From Micromonospora violae (lineage in GTDB: Bacteria; Actinomycetota; Actinomycetes; Mycobacteriales; Micromonosporaceae), in assembly GCF_004217135.1 (NCBI RefSeq), contig NZ_SHKK01000001.1:3658001-3722000 (forward strand): a stretch of 64,000 nt of DNA, read 5' to 3'. The first letter of the stretch is position 1. Each line of letters begins with the position of its first letter. Made by a program: the position numbers and the translations under genes. Under the pieces are notes generated by a model, which had not been told where the DNA came from, did no database searches, and saw nothing but the letters and a program-made list of their open reading frames with translations. Below, piece after piece: positions 26,413 to 39,795 of the stretch.

Positions 26413-26676
26413 TCAGTTTCCCAGCGCTCGGACCTTGGCGATCGTCTCCTGGACGTGCTGCTTGGCCGGGTCGCCACCCTGGGCCGCCCGCGCCAGCGCC
26501 TGACGGTACGAATCGATCATGCCGACCAGGGGACCGGCGGCTACGCCTTCCAGGGCACCCGCCACGAGTGCCCGTGCCTCGGCCGCGTCCTGTGCCGCCG
26601 CTGCGGTCTTGGCCTTCGCCTCGTCCAGCTTCTGCGACGCCGCCGCCAACCTCGCGATGACCTGTGCTGCGCTCAC
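26413..26676 (-). CDS. Small helical protein resembling DUF6244
   Basis: An 87-residue protein from GTG 26676 with GGGGAGG six bases upstream; the longer frame to 26922 is not supported. It is Ala-rich and almost wholly helical (SAAQVIARLAAASQKLDEAK, AAAAQDAAEARALVAGALEG, then GPLVGMIDSYRQAL and VQETIAKVRALGN). This matches my memory of the actinobacterial family DUF6244. The size and helical-hairpin character recall WXG100 proteins, but there is no WXG motif. It lies downstream of the FtsK-like ATPase and membrane-protein genes, separated from them by a strong hairpin, so it likely has its own promoter. Role unknown; a secreted or adaptor partner is possible. Confidence 0.65.
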   Translation of the reverse strand: MSAAQVIARLAAASQKLDEAKAKTAAAAQDAAEARALVAGALEGVAAGPLVGMIDSYRQALARAAQGGDPAKQHVQETIAKVRALGN

Positions 26677-26824
26677 GCGCACCTCCCCGTGATCGACCAC
26701 CACCTCCACCGCGGAGACCACATCGGAGCGTACGAGATCGGGGCACCCAACGCGACCACTCGCCCGGGCCGTCGTGTGGGCCCGTCCCGGCAGCCAGCGC
26801 GAGAACGGTTCCACGATCCGCTCG

Positions 26825-26856
26825 ACCGCCGCGGCGAAGAACCGCCGCGGCGAAGA
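26825..26856. repeat. 16-bp perfect tandem duplication
   Basis: ACCGCCGCGGCGAAGA occurs twice in direct succession (26825-26840 and 26841-26856) in the leader region of the DUF6244-like gene. It is probably a recent slippage event. Confidence 0.8.
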
Positions 26857-26887
26857 CCAGCAGGGTGAGCCGAAGATCGACACGGGT

Positions 26888-26936
26888 TTCCGGATGTCGG
26901 GGTATCCCACCGGTCCGGACACCCCGATTTCCGGAA
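26888..26936. terminator. Long stem-loop ending the FtsK/membrane-protein operon
   Basis: Arms TTCCGGATGTCGGGGT (26888-26903) and ACCCCGATTTCCGGAA (26921-26936) pair with one mismatch and one G:T, and pairing continues inward (TCC/GGA at 26905-26907/26917-26919). It starts 39 bp after the stop codon at 26975 and about 210 bp before the DUF6244-like start. Confidence 0.7.
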
Positions 26937-26974
26937 GGCCGAGTGGATCATGCCACTGGCCATCCGGGCCGGGG

Positions 26975-27913
26975 TCAGCGCAGGCCGCGCACCAGCAGCA
27001 GGTAGCAGCAGTAGGCCATCGGCACCAGCAGGAAGCAGATCAGGAACCCGAGCGGCGGATAACGCGGCGGGGTGCCGGCAACCATCGCGGGCCGCCCCCA
27101 CCGGCCCAGCACCAGGTACCCCCCGAAGAACGCCACCGCCGGCAACCCCGCGCAGATCCACGCGCCGAGGGTGAACCCGTCGACCAGGCCGACCCCGGAG
27201 GCGAGCACCAGCATCAGCATCAGCACCCCGCCCGCCGCACCGCAGCCGGCGTAGACGGCCACCGCGCGGGCCAGCGGTGACCACGTCGGCAGCAGCACCG
27301 GCCGCTGGGCCAGCAGTTCCGCCTGCTGCCCGTGCCGGTCGGCCTCGTCGGCCATCCGCCGGGCCAGCTCCAACTCCACCGCCGGGTCGGCCGCCGCCGC
27401 ACGCTGCGCGGGCACCCCACCGCCCGCCGGGCTCACCGCCATCGGCAGCGCCAGCCGCGCCTCCCCCGCCGGCAGCTCGGAATACGCCCCGACCCCCGCC
27501 CGCCCCGGCGTGCCGGCTGCGCCGGCAGGTTCGCCGTCTCCGGTTCCGGGCCCGGTGGACGGGCCAACGCCCGCAGCGGACGCCGATCCAGGGCCGGCAG
27601 CCGATCCAGGGCCGGTGGTGGATGCCGAACCAGGGCCGGGAGGCGGGCCGGGCCAGGTGGCGGCCGCACCCGACGTCCCCGTCCCCTGTCCCGCCCCGGC
27701 CCCCGGGCTAGCAGCAGGGGGTGGCTGGTCGATGCCGATGGCTCGGCCGAGCTGGTCGAGGCGCTGCCCCTGGGCGGTCAGCCGCTGCTGGAGGTAGTCG
27801 ACGGCGGCGTGCAGGTCACGGCGGCGCGCGGACTCGGCGGCGGCGTGTTGCTCCCCGGCGCGGTGCTGCTCGGAGAGTTGTCGGGCCAGCGCCGCGTACT
27901 CCTCGAAGGACAC
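26975..27913 (-). CDS. Coiled-coil, Pro/Gly-rich, C-terminal membrane protein
   Basis: About 312 residues. The first 65 form a charged coiled coil (EYAALARQLSEQHRAGEQHA, AVDYLQQRLTAQGQRLDQLG). Next comes about 110 residues of low-complexity Pro/Gly/Ser/Ala linker, a second helix (VELELARRMADEADRHGQQA), and three membrane segments (AVAVYAGCGAAGGVLMLMLV, GAWICAGLPAVAFFGGYLVL, FLICFLLVPMAYCCYLLLV). GTG 27913 has GGGGAG eight bases upstream; GTG 27919 would overlap the FtsK-like stop codon. Tight coupling to the FtsK-like ATPase gene suggests this protein tethers the soluble ATPase to the membrane. No known family recognised. Confidence 0.75.
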   Translation of the reverse strand: MSFEEYAALARQLSEQHRAGEQHAAAESARRRDLHAAVDYLQQRLTAQGQRLDQLGRAIGIDQPPPAASPGAGAGQGTGTSGAAATWPGPPPGPGSASTTGPGSAAGPGSASAAGVGPSTGPGTGDGEPAGAAGTPGRAGVGAYSELPAGEARLALPMAVSPAGGGVPAQRAAAADPAVELELARRMADEADRHGQQAELLAQRPVLLPTWSPLARAVAVYAGCGAAGGVLMLMLVLASGVGLVDGFTLGAWICAGLPAVAFFGGYLVLGRWGRPAMVAGTPPRYPPLGFLICFLLVPMAYCCYLLLVRGLR

Positions 27914-27915
27914 TG

Positions 27916-30462
27916 TCACCGCTCCCCGTCCGGTTCGTGCCCGTCGCCGACGAACGGGACGATCAGCCGGGTGCGCTGGTCGTGCCGGTCGATGAGCAGC
28001 GCCCGGTCGGGGCGGGGCGTGTAGGTCAGGTCGTGCGTACCCAGGTGCAGGGCCAGCTCGGCCCCGGGCACGTTGAGCGCGACCAGGCAGGCGATGTCGT
28101 CGCGGTTCTGGGTGCCGCCGAGATCGTCGGCGAGCCGGCGGAGGCCCCGCCACCAGCCGAGCAGGTGCACCCCGTGCCCGGGGCCCTGGCGCAGGACGGT
28201 GCGCAGGTCGTCCAGGCCGGAGCGGAAGGTACCCGGGTCGGTGGCCCCGAGGACGGACGCGGCGGCGTCCATGCCGAACACCACCAGGTATTCGCGGCCG
28301 GTGGGCTCGGCGGCCAGCGCGGTGATCCGGTCGCGCAGCCCGGCCGCGTCGAGGCGCTGCACCGGGTGGCCGGTGGCCCGCAGCAGCGTTTCGGTGTCGT
28401 CCGCGACCGGGTCGGCGGCGGTGACCAGGCAGGCCAGCTGGAACCGGGCGTCGCCGGGGGTGTGCTGGCGGGCCAGGCTGAGCGTCGCGGCGCGCAGCAC
28501 GTCCGCGCCGGTCGGTGCGGTGCCCACCACGGCGAGGTGCCGGCCGGGGGTGGTGTCCATGAGGAACAGCGCGGTGGTGCCGTGCACGTCGACGGTCCGG
28601 CCGACCAGTGCCATCGGACGGCGGCCACCGGGGCGCAACCCGACGAAGGTGGGGTCGTCCTCGATGCGCGCGGCTTCGTACCCCTTGAAGACCGCTGGTG
28701 CCCGCGAGCCCTGCGGGCGGGCCTGCCACAGGTCGTGGCGTAACGCGGCGAGGTCCGCGGCGGCGGCGTGCGCGTCGGGGAAGCGCAGCACGGTGTCGGC
28801 GCCGACCGCGCCGGCGGCGGTGTTGACCACGGCCGAGCCGACCGGCAGGGCCGCCGCGGCGTCGTTGAGCTGGTCGAGCACCCCACCGCCACCGGGCAGC
28901 GCCACCCGCAACGCGAACTGCCCGAAGATCGCCTCGGCCCGCCCGTAGAGGGCTTCGATGCCGGTCATGCTCTGGCTGGCGAGCACCAGGTGGATGCCGT
29001 ACGAGCGGCCCTTGCGGGCCAACTCCTCCAACAGGTCCACGGACTCGCGGGCCAACGCGTCGTTGCCGGCGAGCAACACATGGAACTCGTCGATGACCGT
29101 GACGATGCGCGGCAGCGGATTGTCACGGGGCAGGTCGGCGAGCTTCGTGACGCCGTGGCGTTTGAGTGCGGTGGCCCGACGCTGCGCCTCCCGGCGCAGC
29201 TCGCGCAGCACTGCGAGACCGTACTCACGGTCGGATTCGATGCCGACGGCACGGGCGTGCGGCAGCCAGGACGGGTCCCGACCGGTGGGCACGAACTCGG
29301 TGAAGCTCACGCCCTCCTTGAAGTCGAGCAGATAGAGCTGCAACTCGGCCGGCGAGTAGCGGGCGGCCAGCCCGTAGAGGACGTCGAGGAGGAAGACGGT
29401 CTTACCGGCACCGGTGCGCCCGCCGACCAACCAGTGCGGGGTGGCGTCGTCGAAGGCGAGCGTGATCGCGGTGTCGAAGGCCGCGCCACCGCCGGCCCGG
29501 CCGATCACCGTCCGCAGACCGTTGCCGGCGGACTCGGCCCAACGCCGCTCGGGCAGCAGATCGGTGAAGGGCAACGCGTCGGCGCGGCGGGTGGCGGTGC
29601 CGAGGTGCTCGGCGAGCGCGCGTACCGAGGCGGGCGGCGGGTCGCCGTCGAGCAGGACGGGTGCGGCGAGCCCGCTGCCGTCGGCACTGAACGGGGTGCC
29701 GGGTGGGTCACCGACGTGCGCGTACCCCTGGTGGAGCCGCACCGCGGTGGTGCCGCCCAGCGGCGGGGCGGTCTCGCCGGGCAGCCGCGACGGGTGGCCG
29801 GCGAGCAGGACGCACACGGCGGCGGCCGGGCCGGCGTGGGTGAGCGCGGCGAGCCGGGCCAGTTCGCGGGGCGGCGGCGCGGCGGTAGCGACCAGCACCA
29901 GGAGGCGGCGGGCGGCGGGCTCACTGTGCTGCGCGGCGCGGGCGTGCTGCTCGGCGGCGTCCAGCAGCGCGGCCACCTCGGCCTCGCCGGTGGCCGGCGG
30001 ATCGAGCACCCCGGCGTCGAGCAGGGGGCGCAACGGGCCGAAGGTGGCGCCGAGCGCGGCGGTGTCGATGCCGGCGACGCGGACCTGACCGGGTGGCGCG
30101 GTGGCGACCAGTCGCAGCACGAGCGCCCGCAGCAGCCCGGCGACCTGCGGGTCCCGGGCGTCGGTGTCGAGCGCCAGGTGGTGGCCGCCGCCGAGCGGGA
30201 CCAGCACCGGGAAGCCGCCGTCCGACGTGGACGCCTCGCCGATCCGCACCGCGGCCGGCTCGTCCGTCAGCGACGTGACGCCCGGGGCTGGGGTGGCCAG
30301 GGCACCGCCGACGCGGGCGAGGCGGGCCACCAGGTCATCGACGCCTCCCGGCGCGGTGACGGTCGGCGTCGCCCCCAGAACGGTGCGGGCGGCGTCCAGA
30401 TGCGCCCGGGCCGCCCGATGGGAGTTGACCGCCTGCCCGTACGCCGACGCGAGCCTGCCCAC
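27916..30462 (-). CDS. FtsK/SpoIIIE-type ATPase with three P-loop-like modules
   Basis: An 848-residue soluble protein with no membrane helices. The N-terminal 50 residues are helical (GQAVNSHRAARAHLDAAR). Residues about 85-225 look like a degenerate P-loop module (ALVLRLVATAPPGQVRVAGI, then RRLLVLVATAAPP). The central module is intact: Walker A GGRTGAGKT at 347-355, LYLLDFKEG, Walker B VTVIDEFH near 454-461, and sensor LVLASQSM near 492-499. A third module (about 630-800) has a broken Walker A (VGTAPTGAD, no Lys) and YLVVFGMD. One active plus flanking degenerate modules recalls EccC/EssC of type VII secretion, although the order differs. It is coupled by overlap to the coiled-coil membrane protein gene. 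Confidence 0.85.
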   Translation of the reverse strand: MGRLASAYGQAVNSHRAARAHLDAARTVLGATPTVTAPGGVDDLVARLARVGGALATPAPGVTSLTDEPAAVRIGEASTSDGGFPVLVPLGGGHHLALDTDARDPQVAGLLRALVLRLVATAPPGQVRVAGIDTAALGATFGPLRPLLDAGVLDPPATGEAEVAALLDAAEQHARAAQHSEPAARRLLVLVATAAPPPRELARLAALTHAGPAAAVCVLLAGHPSRLPGETAPPLGGTTAVRLHQGYAHVGDPPGTPFSADGSGLAAPVLLDGDPPPASVRALAEHLGTATRRADALPFTDLLPERRWAESAGNGLRTVIGRAGGGAAFDTAITLAFDDATPHWLVGGRTGAGKTVFLLDVLYGLAARYSPAELQLYLLDFKEGVSFTEFVPTGRDPSWLPHARAVGIESDREYGLAVLRELRREAQRRATALKRHGVTKLADLPRDNPLPRIVTVIDEFHVLLAGNDALARESVDLLEELARKGRSYGIHLVLASQSMTGIEALYGRAEAIFGQFALRVALPGGGGVLDQLNDAAAALPVGSAVVNTAAGAVGADTVLRFPDAHAAAADLAALRHDLWQARPQGSRAPAVFKGYEAARIEDDPTFVGLRPGGRRPMALVGRTVDVHGTTALFLMDTTPGRHLAVVGTAPTGADVLRAATLSLARQHTPGDARFQLACLVTAADPVADDTETLLRATGHPVQRLDAAGLRDRITALAAEPTGREYLVVFGMDAAASVLGATDPGTFRSGLDDLRTVLRQGPGHGVHLLGWWRGLRRLADDLGGTQNRDDIACLVALNVPGAELALHLGTHDLTYTPRPDRALLIDRHDQRTRLIVPFVGDGHEPDGER

Positions 30463-30560
30463 CCTCTGCCCCCAACACCGACGGCCGCCTGGTCCCAGGA
30501 ACCCTAACGGACGTCAGCGGCACCCGGACAGTCCTGCGAGGACGTGTCCCGCCGGGCCGG

Positions 30561-33254
30561 TCACGCCGGACCGCACTCCGCCGGGCCGGACGCGTCGGCC
30601 ACCCCGCAGCGGAACACCTCCACCGGCGCGGTCGCCACGTCGGGTACCTGTTCCACCCGCATCAGGGCCAGCCGCTTGTCGACCGGCTCCCCCGAGTCGG
30701 GCGTGAACCGGACCAATCCGGCCACCCCCGGGTAGCCCTGACCGGCGTTCTGCCGGAGCACCTCCGCGTGCACGCCCACCGGGTTGACCGAATCCGGCTT
30801 CCAGCGTTGCCGGGGGTCGGCGTGGTGCAGCCGGGCGGCGAGACTCTCCACGGCGCGCACCAGCATCATCGCCGCGTCGTAGGCGAGGCTGACCCGCTCG
30901 CCGACCTGCTCCTCGGCGCCCGGCCGGCAGCGCGGCGGGTCCAGCAGGTCGTCGGCCTGGATCCAGGACAGGAAGCTGGCCCGCGCGTCGTCGCGTCGGG
31001 CCTGGGCGGCCCGCAGCGCGGCGCAGGTGGCCAGCGACGCCTTCGACACGTACGTGACGGGCACGTTGCCGGGCGCGGCGGCGCGCAGCCCCGGGTTGGC
31101 CATGTAACGGTTGGCCGAATCGTCGGCGACGATGTGTCGGGGCGGGTTGCCGCCACACTCGCGCAGCGCCCGCAGGAAACCGTCGAACTCGGACCATCGA
31201 CCGGCGTAGAAGAGCAGCCCGGGGTAGCCGCACTCGTCGGTCAGCCGCCGCCCGGTGCGCCACTCGTCGAGGCGGGTGATCCGGGGGCCGAACTGTTGTC
31301 GGAGCCCGTCGACGAGGGTGCCCACGTAGAGGTCCTCGGTGAGCGAACTGCCCTCCAAGGTGGTGTAGAAGACGTGCGCCTCGTTGACCTTCAGCACCTG
31401 CTTGGCGTACGCGTCGACCAGCTTCACCTGGTCCTTGTTCGGTGCGGACATCTGCAGGTACAGGCGGGAGTTGGCGTCTATCTTGTCGGCGGAGAGGGTG
31501 GGCGCCAGCGCCGGCAGCCCGACCTGGTTCAGCTCGCGCAGCGCGCGGGCGGTGCTGGTCCGGCTCTCCACCAGCCCGACCACCCCGAGCACCGTGGGGT
31601 CGTCCCGGGCCAGTTCGGCCAGCATCGCCACCGCCCGATCCGCGTAGATCATCTGCCGGCCGCCGTTGGCCACCACGATCCGCAGCAGCGCGGCGCCGTC
31701 GGCGCCCGCCGACTCCTTCAGCAGCGCGTACTGCGCGGTGGCCATGCCTTCGAGCTCCTCCCGCTCGGAGACGTACGACTCCTCGTCCGCGCGGGTCCGG
31801 TTGCCGGTCAGGGTGCCGAGGTAGACCAGGGTGAGGAAGGGCCGCCGCCGGTCGCTGCGCTGCCACACCTCCTCGGCGGCACGGTTCTGCGCGAAGATGC
31901 GCCGTTGGATGGTGCGCAGCCGGTCCTGGCCGGGGTCGTTGTTGAACACCTGGGTGGCGCTGTCGCTGTAGCCGACACACTCGCCGCTGCCGACCACCTC
32001 GACCGAGACCTGGCCGGTGAGCGAGGGGTGACAGCCCGGCCCCCACCGGCTCGCCGCCCAGAGGCCGAGCGTCGCGACCAGCACCAGACACAGCGCCGCC
32101 GGCAGGAAGCGCCGCGACCACCACGGCGGGTCGGGAGCGGAGAAGGGCCGCAGTCCGCCACGGGACGGCGGGCCGGTGTCGGTCTCGTCGGGGCGCAACG
32201 CCACGAGCCACGTGGCCGGGCGGCGCAGCCGGCGCATCTCCGGCAGCGCCTCGGCCCACTCGTCGTACGCCTCGTCGGCCTCGGTCAGCGGGTGCGGTTC
32301 GGGCAGGTCCGGTGGGGGTTGCCCGCCCGACGCGACGACCAGCAGCGGATCGTTGCGGCCAGTCTCGGTGCGGACCTCACCGAGCAGCCGGACCAGCTCC
32401 CCGCCCACGTTGCCGGGGGCGACGTGGTCGAGCAGCAGCGCCGGGTACGCGGTGCGCCGCCAGTCCGACGGGCGCCACGGTCGACGCCGGTACGCCTGCC
32501 GCAGGTCCTCCAGGAACGCGTGCAGCAGCAGCTTGTTGACCTGGTCGGGTTGCTCCCCGTCACGCCAGCCCGCGGTGAGACGCTCGGCGAAGCCGAGGAA
32601 GGTGACCGACTGCCGGGGCGCCAGGTACTGCTGGCGCATGAACCAGTTGTAGTGCCGCCCCAGCACCGGCACCCGCCCGGACACGGCAGCCCGGAAGACC
32701 ACCCCCGGCACGGCGCGACGGATCAGCCAGAGCAGCACCTGCGAGGCGATGCTGACCGCGTCGCCGCCGGAGGGCAACGCCTCCGGCGTCCGCGGGCCCC
32801 GGCGGTCGCGCAGGCGGCGGACCAGGGCCGCGCGGCTGTCGTCGGCGTCGATGCCCGCGCTGATGCTCTGCTGCATCAGCCAGTCGGCGAGCGGATAGTG
32901 CCGGAAGCGCAGTCGGGCGGCCCCGAACGCCTCCAGGGACAGCTGCCGGTGCAGTTCGCGCAGCAACGCCGGCACGTCACCGGCAGCGGGCGGCGCGTCG
33001 GCGTCCAGCACGGCGTGCGGGACCCGCCGCCGGGGACCCTGACCGAGGAATCGGCGCAGCGGCACCATCAGATCCACGCTGTCGGAGCGGACCAACCACA
33101 GCAGCGGCAGCCGGCGGTCACCGCGACGGGGTCGCCGCAGCAGCCGGGCGATCAGCGCGAACAGCTCCAACCCGCCGGGCGGCAGCCGCTCCCGACCGGC
33201 GGCTGACTGCCGTTGGCCGATCAACTCCCGCTGGGGCACCTCCGACCGCCGCAC
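30561..33254 (-). CDS. Transmembrane receptor: degenerate NTPase-like domain fused to LivJ-type binding domain
   Basis: An 897-residue protein from GTG 33254 with GGAGGTGA upstream. Residues about 25-320 are cytosolic and fold-compatible with a STAND/AAA-like P-loop domain: LPLLWLVRSDS sits where Walker A belongs but lacks GK[ST], YPALLLDHV resembles Walker B and DPLLVVASGG a sensor strand. One membrane helix follows (about 383-402, FLPAALCLVLVATLGLWAAS). The extracytoplasmic part (405-897) is a type I periplasmic-binding domain like LivJ or ANF receptors (LTLVYLGTL, VLGVVGLVESRTSTARALRE, YAKQVLKVNEAHVFY, SLAYDAAMMLVRAVE). No ABC permease is nearby, so it is a sensor rather than transport component. 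It lies 98 bp upstream of the FtsK-like gene, same strand. Confidence 0.8.
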   Translation of the reverse strand: MRRSEVPQRELIGQRQSAAGRERLPPGGLELFALIARLLRRPRRGDRRLPLLWLVRSDSVDLMVPLRRFLGQGPRRRVPHAVLDADAPPAAGDVPALLRELHRQLSLEAFGAARLRFRHYPLADWLMQQSISAGIDADDSRAALVRRLRDRRGPRTPEALPSGGDAVSIASQVLLWLIRRAVPGVVFRAAVSGRVPVLGRHYNWFMRQQYLAPRQSVTFLGFAERLTAGWRDGEQPDQVNKLLLHAFLEDLRQAYRRRPWRPSDWRRTAYPALLLDHVAPGNVGGELVRLLGEVRTETGRNDPLLVVASGGQPPPDLPEPHPLTEADEAYDEWAEALPEMRRLRRPATWLVALRPDETDTGPPSRGGLRPFSAPDPPWWSRRFLPAALCLVLVATLGLWAASRWGPGCHPSLTGQVSVEVVGSGECVGYSDSATQVFNNDPGQDRLRTIQRRIFAQNRAAEEVWQRSDRRRPFLTLVYLGTLTGNRTRADEESYVSEREELEGMATAQYALLKESAGADGAALLRIVVANGGRQMIYADRAVAMLAELARDDPTVLGVVGLVESRTSTARALRELNQVGLPALAPTLSADKIDANSRLYLQMSAPNKDQVKLVDAYAKQVLKVNEAHVFYTTLEGSSLTEDLYVGTLVDGLRQQFGPRITRLDEWRTGRRLTDECGYPGLLFYAGRWSEFDGFLRALRECGGNPPRHIVADDSANRYMANPGLRAAAPGNVPVTYVSKASLATCAALRAAQARRDDARASFLSWIQADDLLDPPRCRPGAEEQVGERVSLAYDAAMMLVRAVESLAARLHHADPRQRWKPDSVNPVGVHAEVLRQNAGQGYPGVAGLVRFTPDSGEPVDKRLALMRVEQVPDVATAPVEVFRCGVADASGPAECGPA

Positions 33255-35554: not shown

Positions 35555-35689
35555 CAGCGCAGCGTAACGATGATCTTCATGGTGGGCTGTCCCGGAAGCG
35601 GGCCACCGAGGGTGACAGCTGTCTCAGCGCTTCGCGACCGGCCCGGCGGTCGCCAATTCCCTGAGCCGGACCCCGCCCGAGAGAACGAC

Positions 35690-35882
35690 AACGGCACCAT
35701 CGCGCAGTTCCAAGCGCTGGCCGAACAGATCTCCGGGCTGGACCTGGACGACCTGTTCACCACCTGGCTGTTCACCCCCGGCCGGCCCGACGTGGCCAGC
35801 GCCGCTCACAAGCCGCCCGCCGACCGAGCCGAAGCCCTGGCCCAAGATCCGCGAGAGGCACCACCCGCTGCTGTCGCACTAG
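35690..35882 (+). pseudogene. Decayed duplicate of the M1 peptidase C-terminus
   Basis: This stretch encodes GTIAQFQALAEQISGLDLDD and FTTWLFTPGRPDVASAA, identical to the C-terminus of the M1 peptidase. A 2-bp deletion relative to the parent (CTCACAAGCC versus CTCGCAAGGCCA) shifts the frame. No catalytic domain precedes it; the 120 bp upstream (35570-35689) is unrelated. It is a gene fragment left by duplication. Confidence 0.85.
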
Positions 35883-35907
35883 GACGGTCCATCGCCGCCC
35901 AGCCGCG

Positions 35908-35980
35908 TCGATCATGCAGTTGTGGTGCCCCACAAATCGGGCAGGAGCGAACCTTCCGCCCACCACAACTCCATGATCGA
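35908..35980. repeat. Inverted-repeat element, copy B
   Basis: The same 20-bp arms as copy A (35908-35927 and 35961-35980) with a 33-nt centre that differs from copy A at two positions. Confidence 0.75.
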
Positions 35981-35998
35981 CCGACGAGGGGGTGGGGC

Positions 35999-36319
35999 GG
36001 AGGGTTGGCGGGGCGGAGGGGTGGCGGGGCGGGGGCGGGGCGGGGCGGGGGCCGCCGCGGGTGGCTGTTTTATGTAAAACAATTTGCCAAGCCTTGGAAA
36101 ATCTTTGGCGTCACCGCGGTCAGTTCAAATAAACCGTGGTGATTCGTGCCATGTTTCGCTGTTCGAGCAGGTCGGATACAAATACACCGGATGCCGGTAG
36201 ATCAACGGAAGGCGCAGAGGCAGCAGCCCGCAGCGGCTCACCACAACAGACGATTACCGCCGCCCGACTTGGCCGTCAGCCCAAACCAAGTCAACCACCG
36301 ACCAGATTGGACAGAAGTT
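35999..36319. other. Compositionally split intergenic region (G-rich then AT-rich)
   Basis: The first 60 bp are almost pure G/C with long G-runs. From 36063 to about 36145 the composition turns AT-rich (for example TTTTATGTAAAACAATTTG), which is rare in this genome and could hold a promoter. I see no convincing gene before 36320. The AT-rich part may be foreign DNA or a promoter region for the small secreted protein. Confidence 0.6.
36026..36051 (+). other. G-quadruplex-forming motif
   Basis: Five G-runs of 4, 5, 4, 4 and 5 bases are separated by single C residues (36026-36029, 36031-36035, 36037-36040, 36042-36045, 36047-36051). This satisfies any standard G4 rule with minimum loop length. 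Confidence 0.75.
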
Positions 36320-38259: not shown

Positions 38260-39795
38260 TCAGCGAACGGCCAGCGCCTGCGCGGCCGGACCCACCGGAG
38301 CCGGCAACGCGCCGACACCACCCAGGTAGGTGTGGATGGCGGCCGCCACCGCCCGCCCCTCGGCGATGGCCCAGACGATCAGCGAAGCGCCCCGGTGCAT
38401 GTCACCGGCCACGAACACCCCGTCCGCATCGGTCTGCCAGTCGTCGCGGGCGTCGATGGCACCCCGAGCGTTGCGGGCCACACCGAGTTGGGCCAGCAGC
38501 GGCTGCTGCTCGGTGCCCTCGAAGCCGATCGCCAGCAGCACCAGGTCGGCCGGCAGCTCCCGTTCCGATCCCGGTACCACCGTGACGACCCGACGTCCGT
38601 CGCGCTTCTCCACCGTCACCTCGGCGATCCGCACCGCCCGCACCTGACCGGTGCCGTCGTCCACGAACTCCTGCACCGCCACGGCGAAGACCCGCTCGCC
38701 ACCCTCCTCGTGCGCCGGGTAGCTGCGCAGGATCCACGGCCACGTCGGCCACGGGTCCCGTGCCTCGTCGCGCTCCTGCGGCGGCTGCGGGTACAGGTCG
38801 AGCTGGTGCACACCCGCGGCGCCCTGGCGGTGGGCGACACCGAGACAGTCGGCCGCCGTGTCACCGCCACCGATGATCACCACGTGCTTGCCGGCCGCGT
38901 CGATCGGGCTGCCGTCGGGCAACACCGCCCGCGCCAGCCGGCGCTCGCCGGTGGCCACCACGCCAGCCTGATCGGTGGCCGCGGTGGCGACCGCGCGATT
39001 CGCCGCGACCAGGTGCGCCATCGCCTGGTGTACGCCCCGAAGCGCCCGCCCCGGGGTCTCCGGAGTGTCCCGGCCCTGCAACGCCCCGCAGGCCAGCAGC
39101 ACCGCGTCGTGCTCGGCACGCAACTGCTCGGCGGTGACGTCCACCCCGACGTTCACGCCGGTGCGGAAGCGCACCCCCTCGGCGGTGAGCTGGGCCAACC
39201 GGGCGTCGATGTGCCGCTTCTCCAACTTGAAGTCGGGGATGCCGTACCGGAGCAGGCCACCGATGGCGTCGTCGCGCTCGTACACCGTCACCGCGTGACC
39301 GGCGCGGGCCAGTTGCTGGGCGGCGGCGAGGCCGGCGGGCCCGGAACCGACCACGGCGACCGACCGGCCGGACGGCGCCGGCACCGGACGCGGGGTGAAC
39401 CCCCGCGCCGCGGCCGCGTCCGCGATCTCCACCTCGACCTGCTTGATGGTCACCGGTTGGCCGCCGGAGATGCCGAGCACGCAGGCCGCCTCGCAGGGCG
39501 CCGGGCAGAGCCGGCCGGTGAACTCCGGGAAGTTGTTGGTGGCGTGCAGCGACTCCACCGCGGCGTCCCAGTTGCCGGTACGCACCAGGTCGTTCCAGTC
39601 CGGGATGCGGTTGCCCAGCGGGCAGCCGTCGTGGCAGAACGGGATGCCGCAGTCCATGCATCGGGTGGCCTGCTCACGGATCAGTTCCTCACCGGCCGGC
39701 GGGTACACCTCCCGCCAGTCGCTGATCCGCACCGGCACCGGACGACGGGCCGGCAGCCGCCGGTCGTAGCGCAGAAAACCGTTCGGGTCAGGCAC
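38260..39795 (-). CDS. gltD: Glutamate synthase small (beta) subunit
   Basis: A 511-residue protein from GTG 39795 behind GGAGG. It has the N-terminal Fe-S motif [20 protein letters not shown], the second Cys cluster [13 protein letters not shown], the FAD site [20 protein letters not shown], and the NADPH site [16 protein letters not shown]. It passes electrons from NADPH through FAD and 4Fe-4S clusters to the large subunit. Its start overlaps the gltB stop by eight bases, so the two are coupled. Length is standard. Confidence 0.97.

Follow-up and report, generated by a model that had tools for sequence, protein, structure and literature searches.

We analysed a stretch of 64,000 nucleotides from Micromonospora violae (contig NZ_SHKK01000001.1, positions 3,658,001 to 3,722,000; hereafter, the window), in which four neighboring genes on the minus strand encode a receptor, an FtsK-like ATPase, a coiled-coil membrane protein, and a small helical protein. 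The four leftward genes of a preliminary description were confirmed at the coordinates given below. The conserved core of the locus consists of the soluble ATPase and the coiled-coil membrane protein, and the 87-aa small protein, a member of DUF6244, is their likely functional partner. We read these genes, with a probability of roughly 0.58, as part of a type VII secretion system (T7SS)-like exporter of hairpin proteins and hairpin-tagged toxins that operates via a soluble ATPase of the EccC branch; the docking, the pore, and the export itself are inferred. The reading builds on the ATPase–membrane protein gene pair, the EccC-branch ancestry of the ATPase, the proximity of hairpin genes to ATPase genes, the co-decay of the two, and fusions of DUF6244 to toxins, all of which are shown by the sequence data. 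In the proposed mechanism, the ATPase would dock on the separate coiled-coil protein, and ATP hydrolysis in its single active module would drive hairpin proteins, alone or with toxins, across the membrane, the task that EccC/EssC performs for WXG100 and LXG proteins. The exported hairpins would be DUF6244 at the window locus and an 86-aa family at related loci, and the likely cargo would be toxins of this genus and family that carry a DUF6244 or hairpin module or whose genes lie next to one.

The ATPase gene (positions 30462-27916, minus strand; 848 aa) encodes an N-terminal module (about residues 1-300), an active central module with Walker A at residues 347-355 and Walker B at residues 454-460, and a C-terminal module (about residues 600-848) with a degenerate P-loop. 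The single intact Walker A motif is GGRTGAGKT, and the Walker B motif is VIDEF. The preliminary description had proposed one intact and two degenerate P-loop modules; judged by sequence, this is correct for the central and C-terminal modules, and the N-terminal module has no P-loop. The motif GxxxxGK[ST] was present once in 70 of 80 ATPase relatives and twice in none. Membrane stretches were predicted throughout by hydropathy scan, which gave no N-terminal membrane helices for the ATPase and one borderline stretch near residue 204, within the N-terminal module, in agreement with the earlier statement that the ATPase has no membrane helices of its own.

Sequence comparisons placed the ATPase close to EccC. 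The nearest named ATPases were those of Micromonospora (92% identity), and the protein matched Pfam PF01580 (4.1e-25). EccC and EssC models ranked at the top in NCBIfam, all far under their cut-offs (EccCa TIGR03924, 1.4e-27). A profile built from 25 sequences returned eight PDB matches, which ran mostly through the central module; the best were 4nh0 (2.2e-21), YukB 9qks (8.1e-15), two EccC5 sequences, and 4n1a, and chains named DNA translocase FtsK ranked lower (5.7e-8) than the EccC and YukB chains. Entry 4nh0 was deposited under the name 'Cell division FtsK/SpoIIIE', and we take it to be an EccC. The EccC of the same genome, which exceeds the NCBIfam EccCa and EccCb cut-offs, was aligned with the ATPase by hhalign; residues 242-800 of the ATPase were collinear with residues 366-1031 of EccC (probability 98.7), the central module pairing with the first nucleotide-binding module of EccC and the C-terminal module with the second, where the EccC P-loop AVVGAPQSGKS is matched by AVVGTAPTGAD. 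The DUF of EccC5 is reported to be a degenerate ATPase domain (PMC11154593). These alignments place the ATPase in the EccC/EssC branch; of its nucleotide-binding modules, one is intact and one or more are degenerate. The usual database name and a general FtsK_SpoIIIE match point instead to an FtsK/SpoIIIE-type DNA translocase for chromosome or plasmid transfer, a role that we consider very improbable, since the ATPase is nearer to EccC models and chains than to those of FtsK, showed no N-terminal membrane domain, and decays together with a protein partner.

The coiled-coil membrane protein is encoded immediately downstream (positions 27913-26975, minus strand; 312 aa, or 315 aa if the GTG at 27922 is the start), so that, depending on which start is used, its gene either directly adjoins the ATPase gene or overlaps its end. 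It carries three C-terminal hydrophobic stretches near residues 217, 251, and 285, and probably serves as a membrane anchor or platform for the ATPase. Conservation was assessed in 37 Micromonospora genomes (36 relatives and the window's own genome, G000, a single contig of 7.14 Mb) and in 150 Micromonosporaceae genomes from 44 genera. Genes in other genomes were called with a simple codon-based caller made for this analysis, and co-occurrence is given throughout as raw counts with no phylogenetic correction. The coiled-coil protein was matched in all 37 genus genomes, at just 34-36% identity in G015 and G027, and the ATPase at 55% identity or more in 34 of them, mostly at one chromosomal site; in G012 residues 1-317 alone were matched, and the three genomes with no ATPase match (G010, G014, and G023) are assemblies of 800-990 contigs. 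Relatives of the ATPase (E 1e-60 or better) were found in 135 of the 150 family genomes and in 39 of the 44 genera, and each of 20 hand-picked single-contig genomes had two to four matches. Most of the Micromonosporaceae genomes sampled contain motor relatives, three being a common number, and several of these relatives have a hairpin gene of their own. Among 80 ATPase genes in fetched loci, 78 had a readable downstream gene, and in 65 of these 78 it encoded a same-strand, C-terminally membrane-spanning protein of 110-400 aa, compared with 10 of 1058 other gene pairs from the same loci; several of the 13 loci without such a protein are contig ends or have uncertain starts. A phylum-wide survey, in which two candidates per genome were scored, gave ATPase matches in at least 7 of 396 genomes at E 1e-25 and was not used.

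The small protein gene (positions 26676-26413, minus strand) encodes 87 residues with one hydrophobic stretch mid-protein. It had previously been described as a small helical protein; the gene is real, and its product is a full-length Pfam DUF6244 protein (PF19757; 5.4e-29, 101 bits against a cut-off of 31.6, positions 1-87 of 87), a family to which Pfam assigns no function. It contains no tryptophan, and hence no WXG, has no Pfam match to WXG100, and ends in KVRALGN without a C-terminal YxxxD/E motif. An orthologue with at least 83% identity was found in 28 of the 37 genus genomes; in some it is the immediate neighbor of the coiled-coil gene, and in others it is up to 8.5 kb distant, with variable intervening genes. 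The protein is probably a hairpin that serves the ATPase as a substrate or adaptor.

Many related ATPases are adjoined by an 86-aa two-helix protein with the consensus ..EEVKA..DxLDEA..LRxTAxGSxHP..AI..LxQA..RLDEA..YR. Sixteen of 18 aligned hairpins of 86-89 aa end in an aromatic residue (Y/F), three residues, and an aliphatic one, and two have W; this motif is not independent evidence because 14 of the 18 rows were chosen by this end. One hairpin of 18 gave a weak WXG100 match (E 0.016). A genome-wide search of 20 genomes, from which five of the 18 model rows also derive, returned 67 hairpin matches, and 27 of these lay within 2.5 kb of an ATPase gene, compared with 0.19 expected under uniform placement. 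A hairpin was found within 10 kb at 30 of 59 ATPase places; the window's own place has DUF6244 instead. Tandem hairpin pairs occurred in six of 12 hairpin loci read (L277, L278, L280, L281, L284, and L291), and five pairs were accompanied by a protein of 142-148 aa that is also present at the window-type loci L077, L082, L114, L087, L094, L172, L174, and L177 (E 4e-10 to 1e-16). This shared protein links the orphan hairpin-pair loci to the window-type loci independently of coiled-coil composition. The window genome has hairpins far from its ATPase genes (G000:C1:6975395-6975652, locus L291, and G000:C1:5173967-5174221); in L291 two hairpins of 86-87 aa lie in tandem and are accompanied by the 142-148 aa partner. 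A protein of 211-212 aa was also repeatedly found beside hairpin genes (L286, L293, L294, L273, L096-L098, and L179); the L096 and L293 copies had no Pfam match, and an HNH_2 nuclease gene adjoins the locus in L286. Sequence homology between DUF6244 and the 86-aa hairpins was considered but is not claimed as proven, because reversed DUF6244 sequences scored almost equally, and the iterated search that had joined the two families is open to drift.

The integrity of the ATPase was related to the presence of these partners. Hairpin and DUF6244 genes were scored at E 1e-5 with our own profiles in the stretch fetched around each of 81 aligned ATPases; the stretches span 4-20 kb, so that in some loci counted as lacking a partner it was unseen and not absent. 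The ATPase was intact in all 44 loci with a hairpin or DUF6244, and the 37 ATPases without one comprised 25 intact copies, 10 decayed copies, and two without the motif region (L085, a remnant, and L190, probably given a wrong start in the gene call). For the window type in the genus, 35 ATPases from 34 genomes were scored for Walker A and the DE pair of Walker B. All 25 at loci with a DUF6244 orthologue were intact, compared with seven of the 10 at loci without (Fisher 0.018). The three broken copies are a 313-residue remnant in G012, a copy in G016 that lacks Walker A and the sensor and keeps Walker B, and a copy in G020 that lacks all three.

A genome-wide search gave no DUF6244 match in four of the 37 genus genomes (G012, G016, G020, and G027). 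In G027, as in G015, an 86-aa hairpin gene lies next to the membrane-protein gene of the ATPase locus; as G027 thus has a hairpin instead of DUF6244, the three genomes without a partner are the three with a broken ATPase. The chance of this split under random assignment is once in C(34,3), about 1.7e-4, a value calculated by hand after seeing the data and not corrected for descent. As caveats, the contig of G016 ends soon after the ATPase, and a further ATPase relative (57%) lies in several pieces on another contig of that genome. In a FastTree phylogeny of the ATPase, G012 stood beside the intact G008, and G016 and G020 formed a separate pair, indicating two decay events at window-type loci.

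A similar pattern was found for a second ATPase paralogue, which in the window genome sits with a membrane-protein gene in another cluster containing an AAA_10 ATPase (VirB4-like by our own reading), an M23 peptidase, and a protein in which seven hydrophobic stretches were predicted. In a set of 14 loci with VirB4-like, M23, or associated neighbors, the ATPase was intact in all six with a hairpin gene, and seven of the eight without had lost the Walker B glutamate and the sensor, L184 being intact. The seven decayed copies form one clade with L184 beside it (support for the placement of L184 is modest, at 0.76), as if the hairpin had been lost first and the ATPase had decayed afterward. Two loci added by judgement fit this pattern: L197, with a hairpin and an intact ATPase, and L204, with no hairpin and a decayed one. 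The Micromonospora copies in or near the VirB4-like/M23 cluster (L115, L119, L121, and L211; G000:C1:5318001-5338000 and relatives) have no Walker A, Walker B glutamate, or sensor, and their frame is mostly open, the match in G000 spanning one stop codon. Judged by these motifs, the second paralogue is a pseudo-ATPase in these four loci.

The composition of this cluster also suggests that the window ATPase could be a coupling ATPase for a type-IV-secretion-like channel, handing hairpins to a VirB4-like, polytopic, and M23-containing machine at another locus. The hairpin genes beside the second paralogue at six loci of that type fit such a role, as do weak TraG-D_C and TrwB matches of the window ATPase. 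We regard it as rather unlikely, however, because VirB4-like and channel genes, present at the second paralogue's locus, were absent among the window genes scanned, the active site of the second paralogue has been lost in the four Micromonospora loci read, and EccC and YukB chains came first among the eight PDB matches of the window ATPase, none of which was named VirD4.

Toxin genes provided a second, independent line of evidence that, together with the co-decay, ties the hairpin to the ATPase. DUF6244 paralogues elsewhere in the genus are mostly 175 aa long, with an extra N-terminal helical part, and the same pair of small genes lay close by in 11 of 15 such loci read (in the gene calls of L136, L142, and L146 the first of the pair is shortened). 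When one of these pairs was scanned, it gave a CdiA_C match (1.5e-18) and a protein without a Pfam match, and the second gene is taken as an immunity protein by its position. Genes for a DddA-like toxin and Imm1 lie beside DUF6244 in L134 and L141; L144 has no such toxin or immunity gene, and the Gp49-like gene of L147 is more likely part of a toxin–antitoxin pair. Many of the 30 DUF6244 loci surveyed, including those of the window type, had no recognisable toxin. In L224, a DUF6244 module and a DddA-like domain form one protein of 335 aa, and a small gene behind it occupies the position of Imm1.

A protein search with this fusion, in which 8000 candidates were scored, returned eight proteins. 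P0004 is the L224 protein in Virgisporangium aurantiacum, and P0007 is a second fusion with 42% identity, both matching PF14428 and PF19757. P0005 and P0006 carry the same toxin part (69-72% identity) on a different helical N-terminus ending in ..YGRT[VL]GI, and P0008-P0011 combine DUF6244 with other C-termini, some possibly frameshifted. Trafficking domains of polymorphic toxins are typically recognised by this pattern, in which a single toxin is found on two exchangeable N-terminal modules (see PMC3482391). That these toxins use the window-type ATPase rather than the genome's own ESX is a further step that we infer. An ordinary ESX cluster is present elsewhere in the genome (L116; EccC, EccD, and mycosin over their cut-offs), and the DUF6244-tagged toxins might leave through it, with the ATPase–membrane protein pair merely chaperoning or disassembling hairpins beforehand; a precedent for an accessory ATPase is the cytoplasmic EccA, which accompanies ESX systems other than ESX-4 (PMC11217815). 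We judge this arrangement unlikely, considering that the ATPase has a membrane protein of its own, is itself related to EccC, and is tracked by DUF6244: strong window-type ATPase matches were found in 31 of 35 family genomes with DUF6244 and 11 of 115 without (the threshold for a strong match was set after seeing the list, and descent was not corrected for).

Several observations weigh against the exporter reading. No DUF6244 match at 1e-4 was found in 115 of the 150 family genomes, 37 of the 67 hairpin matches lay more than 10 kb from any ATPase gene, and no toxin gene was found beside the window copy of DUF6244. The 25 intact ATPases with no hairpin or DUF6244 in the fetched stretch also count against it; among them are L184 and those of G006, G011, G013, and G035, four genomes that carry other DUF6244 copies. 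A hairpin profile free of DUF6244 gave E 0.0077 for the window copy (0.49 when reversed) and 6.2e-6 for the best DUF6244 protein, and other reversed DUF6244 sequences reached 0.016. Finally, the ESX cluster could export the toxins, and no candidate for a pore-forming partner emerged.

The remaining gene of the four, encoding the receptor (positions 33254-30561, minus strand; 897 aa), is accessory. Its product has an N-terminal domain, one hydrophobic stretch near residue 382, and a C-terminal type-I periplasmic-binding domain (ANF_receptor/Peripla_BP_6-like); its single stretch and the three of the coiled-coil protein bear out the membrane helices previously assigned to both. The receptor profile matched the ABC substrate-binding protein 4gnr (5.4e-6), PF01094/PF13458 were found in some homologues, and homologues occur in Streptomyces too. 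An orthologue with at least 73% identity was present at the locus in 16 of the 37 genus genomes and absent there from 21; it is in more than one piece in G001, G007, and G017, has an internal stop in G033, and in two of the 16 (L091 and L104) is separated from the ATPase gene by other genes. In L109-L113, homologues stood in fetched stretches of 14-16 kb that showed no ATPase. We place the receptor outside the core as an optional neighbor, since it is gained or lost among genomes in which the ATPase and the membrane protein persist, and since its homologues occur alone. The receptor-gated four-gene system proposed earlier was thus not borne out (receptor in 16 of 37 genomes, ATPase in 34, membrane protein in 37), and conservation of the gene set extends to the ATPase–membrane protein pair, found across Micromonosporaceae and beyond, and not to the receptor, which is variable and also occurs without the ATPase.

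In L093, L101, and L114, the gene for a 509-aa membrane periplasmic-binding protein and a large NTPase gene (NACHT according to Pfam for the L101 copy) are arranged tail to tail beside the coiled-coil gene. The 509-aa protein of L101 is related to the receptor (hhalign probability 97), and the receptor site looks like a place where sensor–NTPase genes come and go. The idea that the N-terminal domain of the receptor is a decayed NACHT NTPase was rejected (hhalign with the L101 NACHT protein, probability 0.2). Such neighbors raise the question of an intracellular conflict or defence NTPase system of the kind predicted by Kaur et al. (2020), in which the receptor would sense a ligand and the ATPase or hairpin would act inside the cell. 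The periplasmic-binding receptor upstream, its shorter relative adjoining a NACHT NTPase in three genomes, and the CHAT-domain and Trypco2 proteins that follow a third ATPase paralogue in one genome (L120, 10304-13367; not so in the window genome, L117) are in line with this scenario. It is nevertheless improbable: the receptor is absent from the locus in most genus genomes and stands alone elsewhere, the ATPase keeps mostly to one chromosomal site, and DUF6244 elsewhere goes with toxin and immunity genes. The defence role suggested earlier gained no positive evidence. PADLOC 2.0 matched the four proteins to SspH, mad8, HerA, and PbeC, all over the ATPase module alone; a known anti-phage defence system was rejected because these matches are limited to the shared ATPase domain.

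Between the coiled-coil and DUF6244 genes, a remnant of a decayed membrane-protein gene (positions 26737..26896, minus strand) was recognised by tblastn in fragments of 20-40 residues with 59-95% identity (E 4e-10 to 4e-8); its intact version is a membrane protein of 172-175 aa in the same place in four relatives (L077, L100, L101, and L105). The proportion of G or C at third codon positions was 0.93 for both the receptor frame (899 codons) and the ATPase frame (866 codons). The surroundings are ordinary chromosome, with genes for the glutamate synthase small subunit (38260-39795), an M1 peptidase-like protein, and an MFS transporter. A short open frame at 35570-36142 matched the beta-lactamase family weakly (E 0.0055, under the cut-off) and, lying in a stretch with few convincing genes, is perhaps a decayed gene. 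In other families, an Hsp70-like gene lies near an ATPase relative in L123 (10930-12456), L205 (3-1879), and L207 (3033-8775), being HSP70 by Pfam in L123 and L207, both of which also have small hairpin genes.

If the exporter reading is true, it would give a role to DUF6244 and to the unnamed 86-aa hairpin family, extend the type VII family by a branch whose motor and membrane anchor are encoded separately, and point to a route for toxins in a large group of soil actinomycetes. It is possible, at somewhat less than even odds, that the locus represents a new class of ATP-driven exporter in Actinomycetota, in which an EccC-like motor, split from its membrane part, carries toxins tagged with a hairpin that is not of the WXG type and has another C-terminal signal. 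Because the motor has repeatedly decayed where the hairpin is lost, the link between motor and substrate can be tested directly.

In the literature searched, with most subscription journals and all preprints outside its scope, no title or abstract among those listed pointed to this gene set, and no paper names DUF6244. Compared with T7SSa/ESX, the system shares the ATPase branch, a small helical partner (two tandem hairpins in some related cassettes), and, within the DUF6244 family, toxins with hairpin N-termini and immunity genes. The likeness to type VII secretion noted in the preliminary description was strengthened by the EccC branch, the conserved membrane partner, and the association of toxins and ATPase integrity with DUF6244. 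The ATPase differs from that of ESX in having no N-terminal membrane helices and three modules instead of four, and the partner has neither WXG nor YxxxD/E. Pfam and NCBIfam scans of ten and nine window genes, respectively, gave no EccB/D/E-like gene, as had been stated before, no mycosin, and no EssA/B, EsaA, TsxD, or similar T7SS membrane partner. Because four defining features tested were lacking, we do not file the system as a T7SS.

Garrett et al. (2024; PMC11217815) describe T7SSa-j with a membrane-bound ATPase (TsxC) and, in most cases, a TsxB that is ubiquitin-like; there is no mention of Micromonospora or Streptomyces in the main text. With no N-terminal helices, WXG motif, or neighboring EccB/D/E, the present system appears to lie outside T7SSa-j as published. 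It resembles T7SSb-j, as portrayed in the same paper, in combining an EssC-like ATPase with a small helical protein, LXG-like toxin modules, and small helical cosecretion partners. Passages on the conflict systems of Kaur et al. (2020; PMC7159879) offer two likenesses, namely the membrane helix with an extracytoplasmic periplasmic-binding domain in System 4 (EACC1-caspase), as in the receptor, and the Trypco2 protein near one ATPase paralogue. No EACC1 or caspase was found among the window genes scanned, and FtsK domains are mentioned there as occasional effector domains only. A table footnote of Zhang et al. (2012; PMC3482391) describes a distinct ATPase with three HerA/FtsK domains, the middle one alone being active, that accompanies solo WXG domains in other phyla and is called a mobile version of T7SS. 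That partner is a WXG protein, and the passages on it give no membrane partner. Compared by description alone, the two share three modules, an active middle module, and a solo hairpin partner, and this footnote is the closest printed precedent that we found for the motor.

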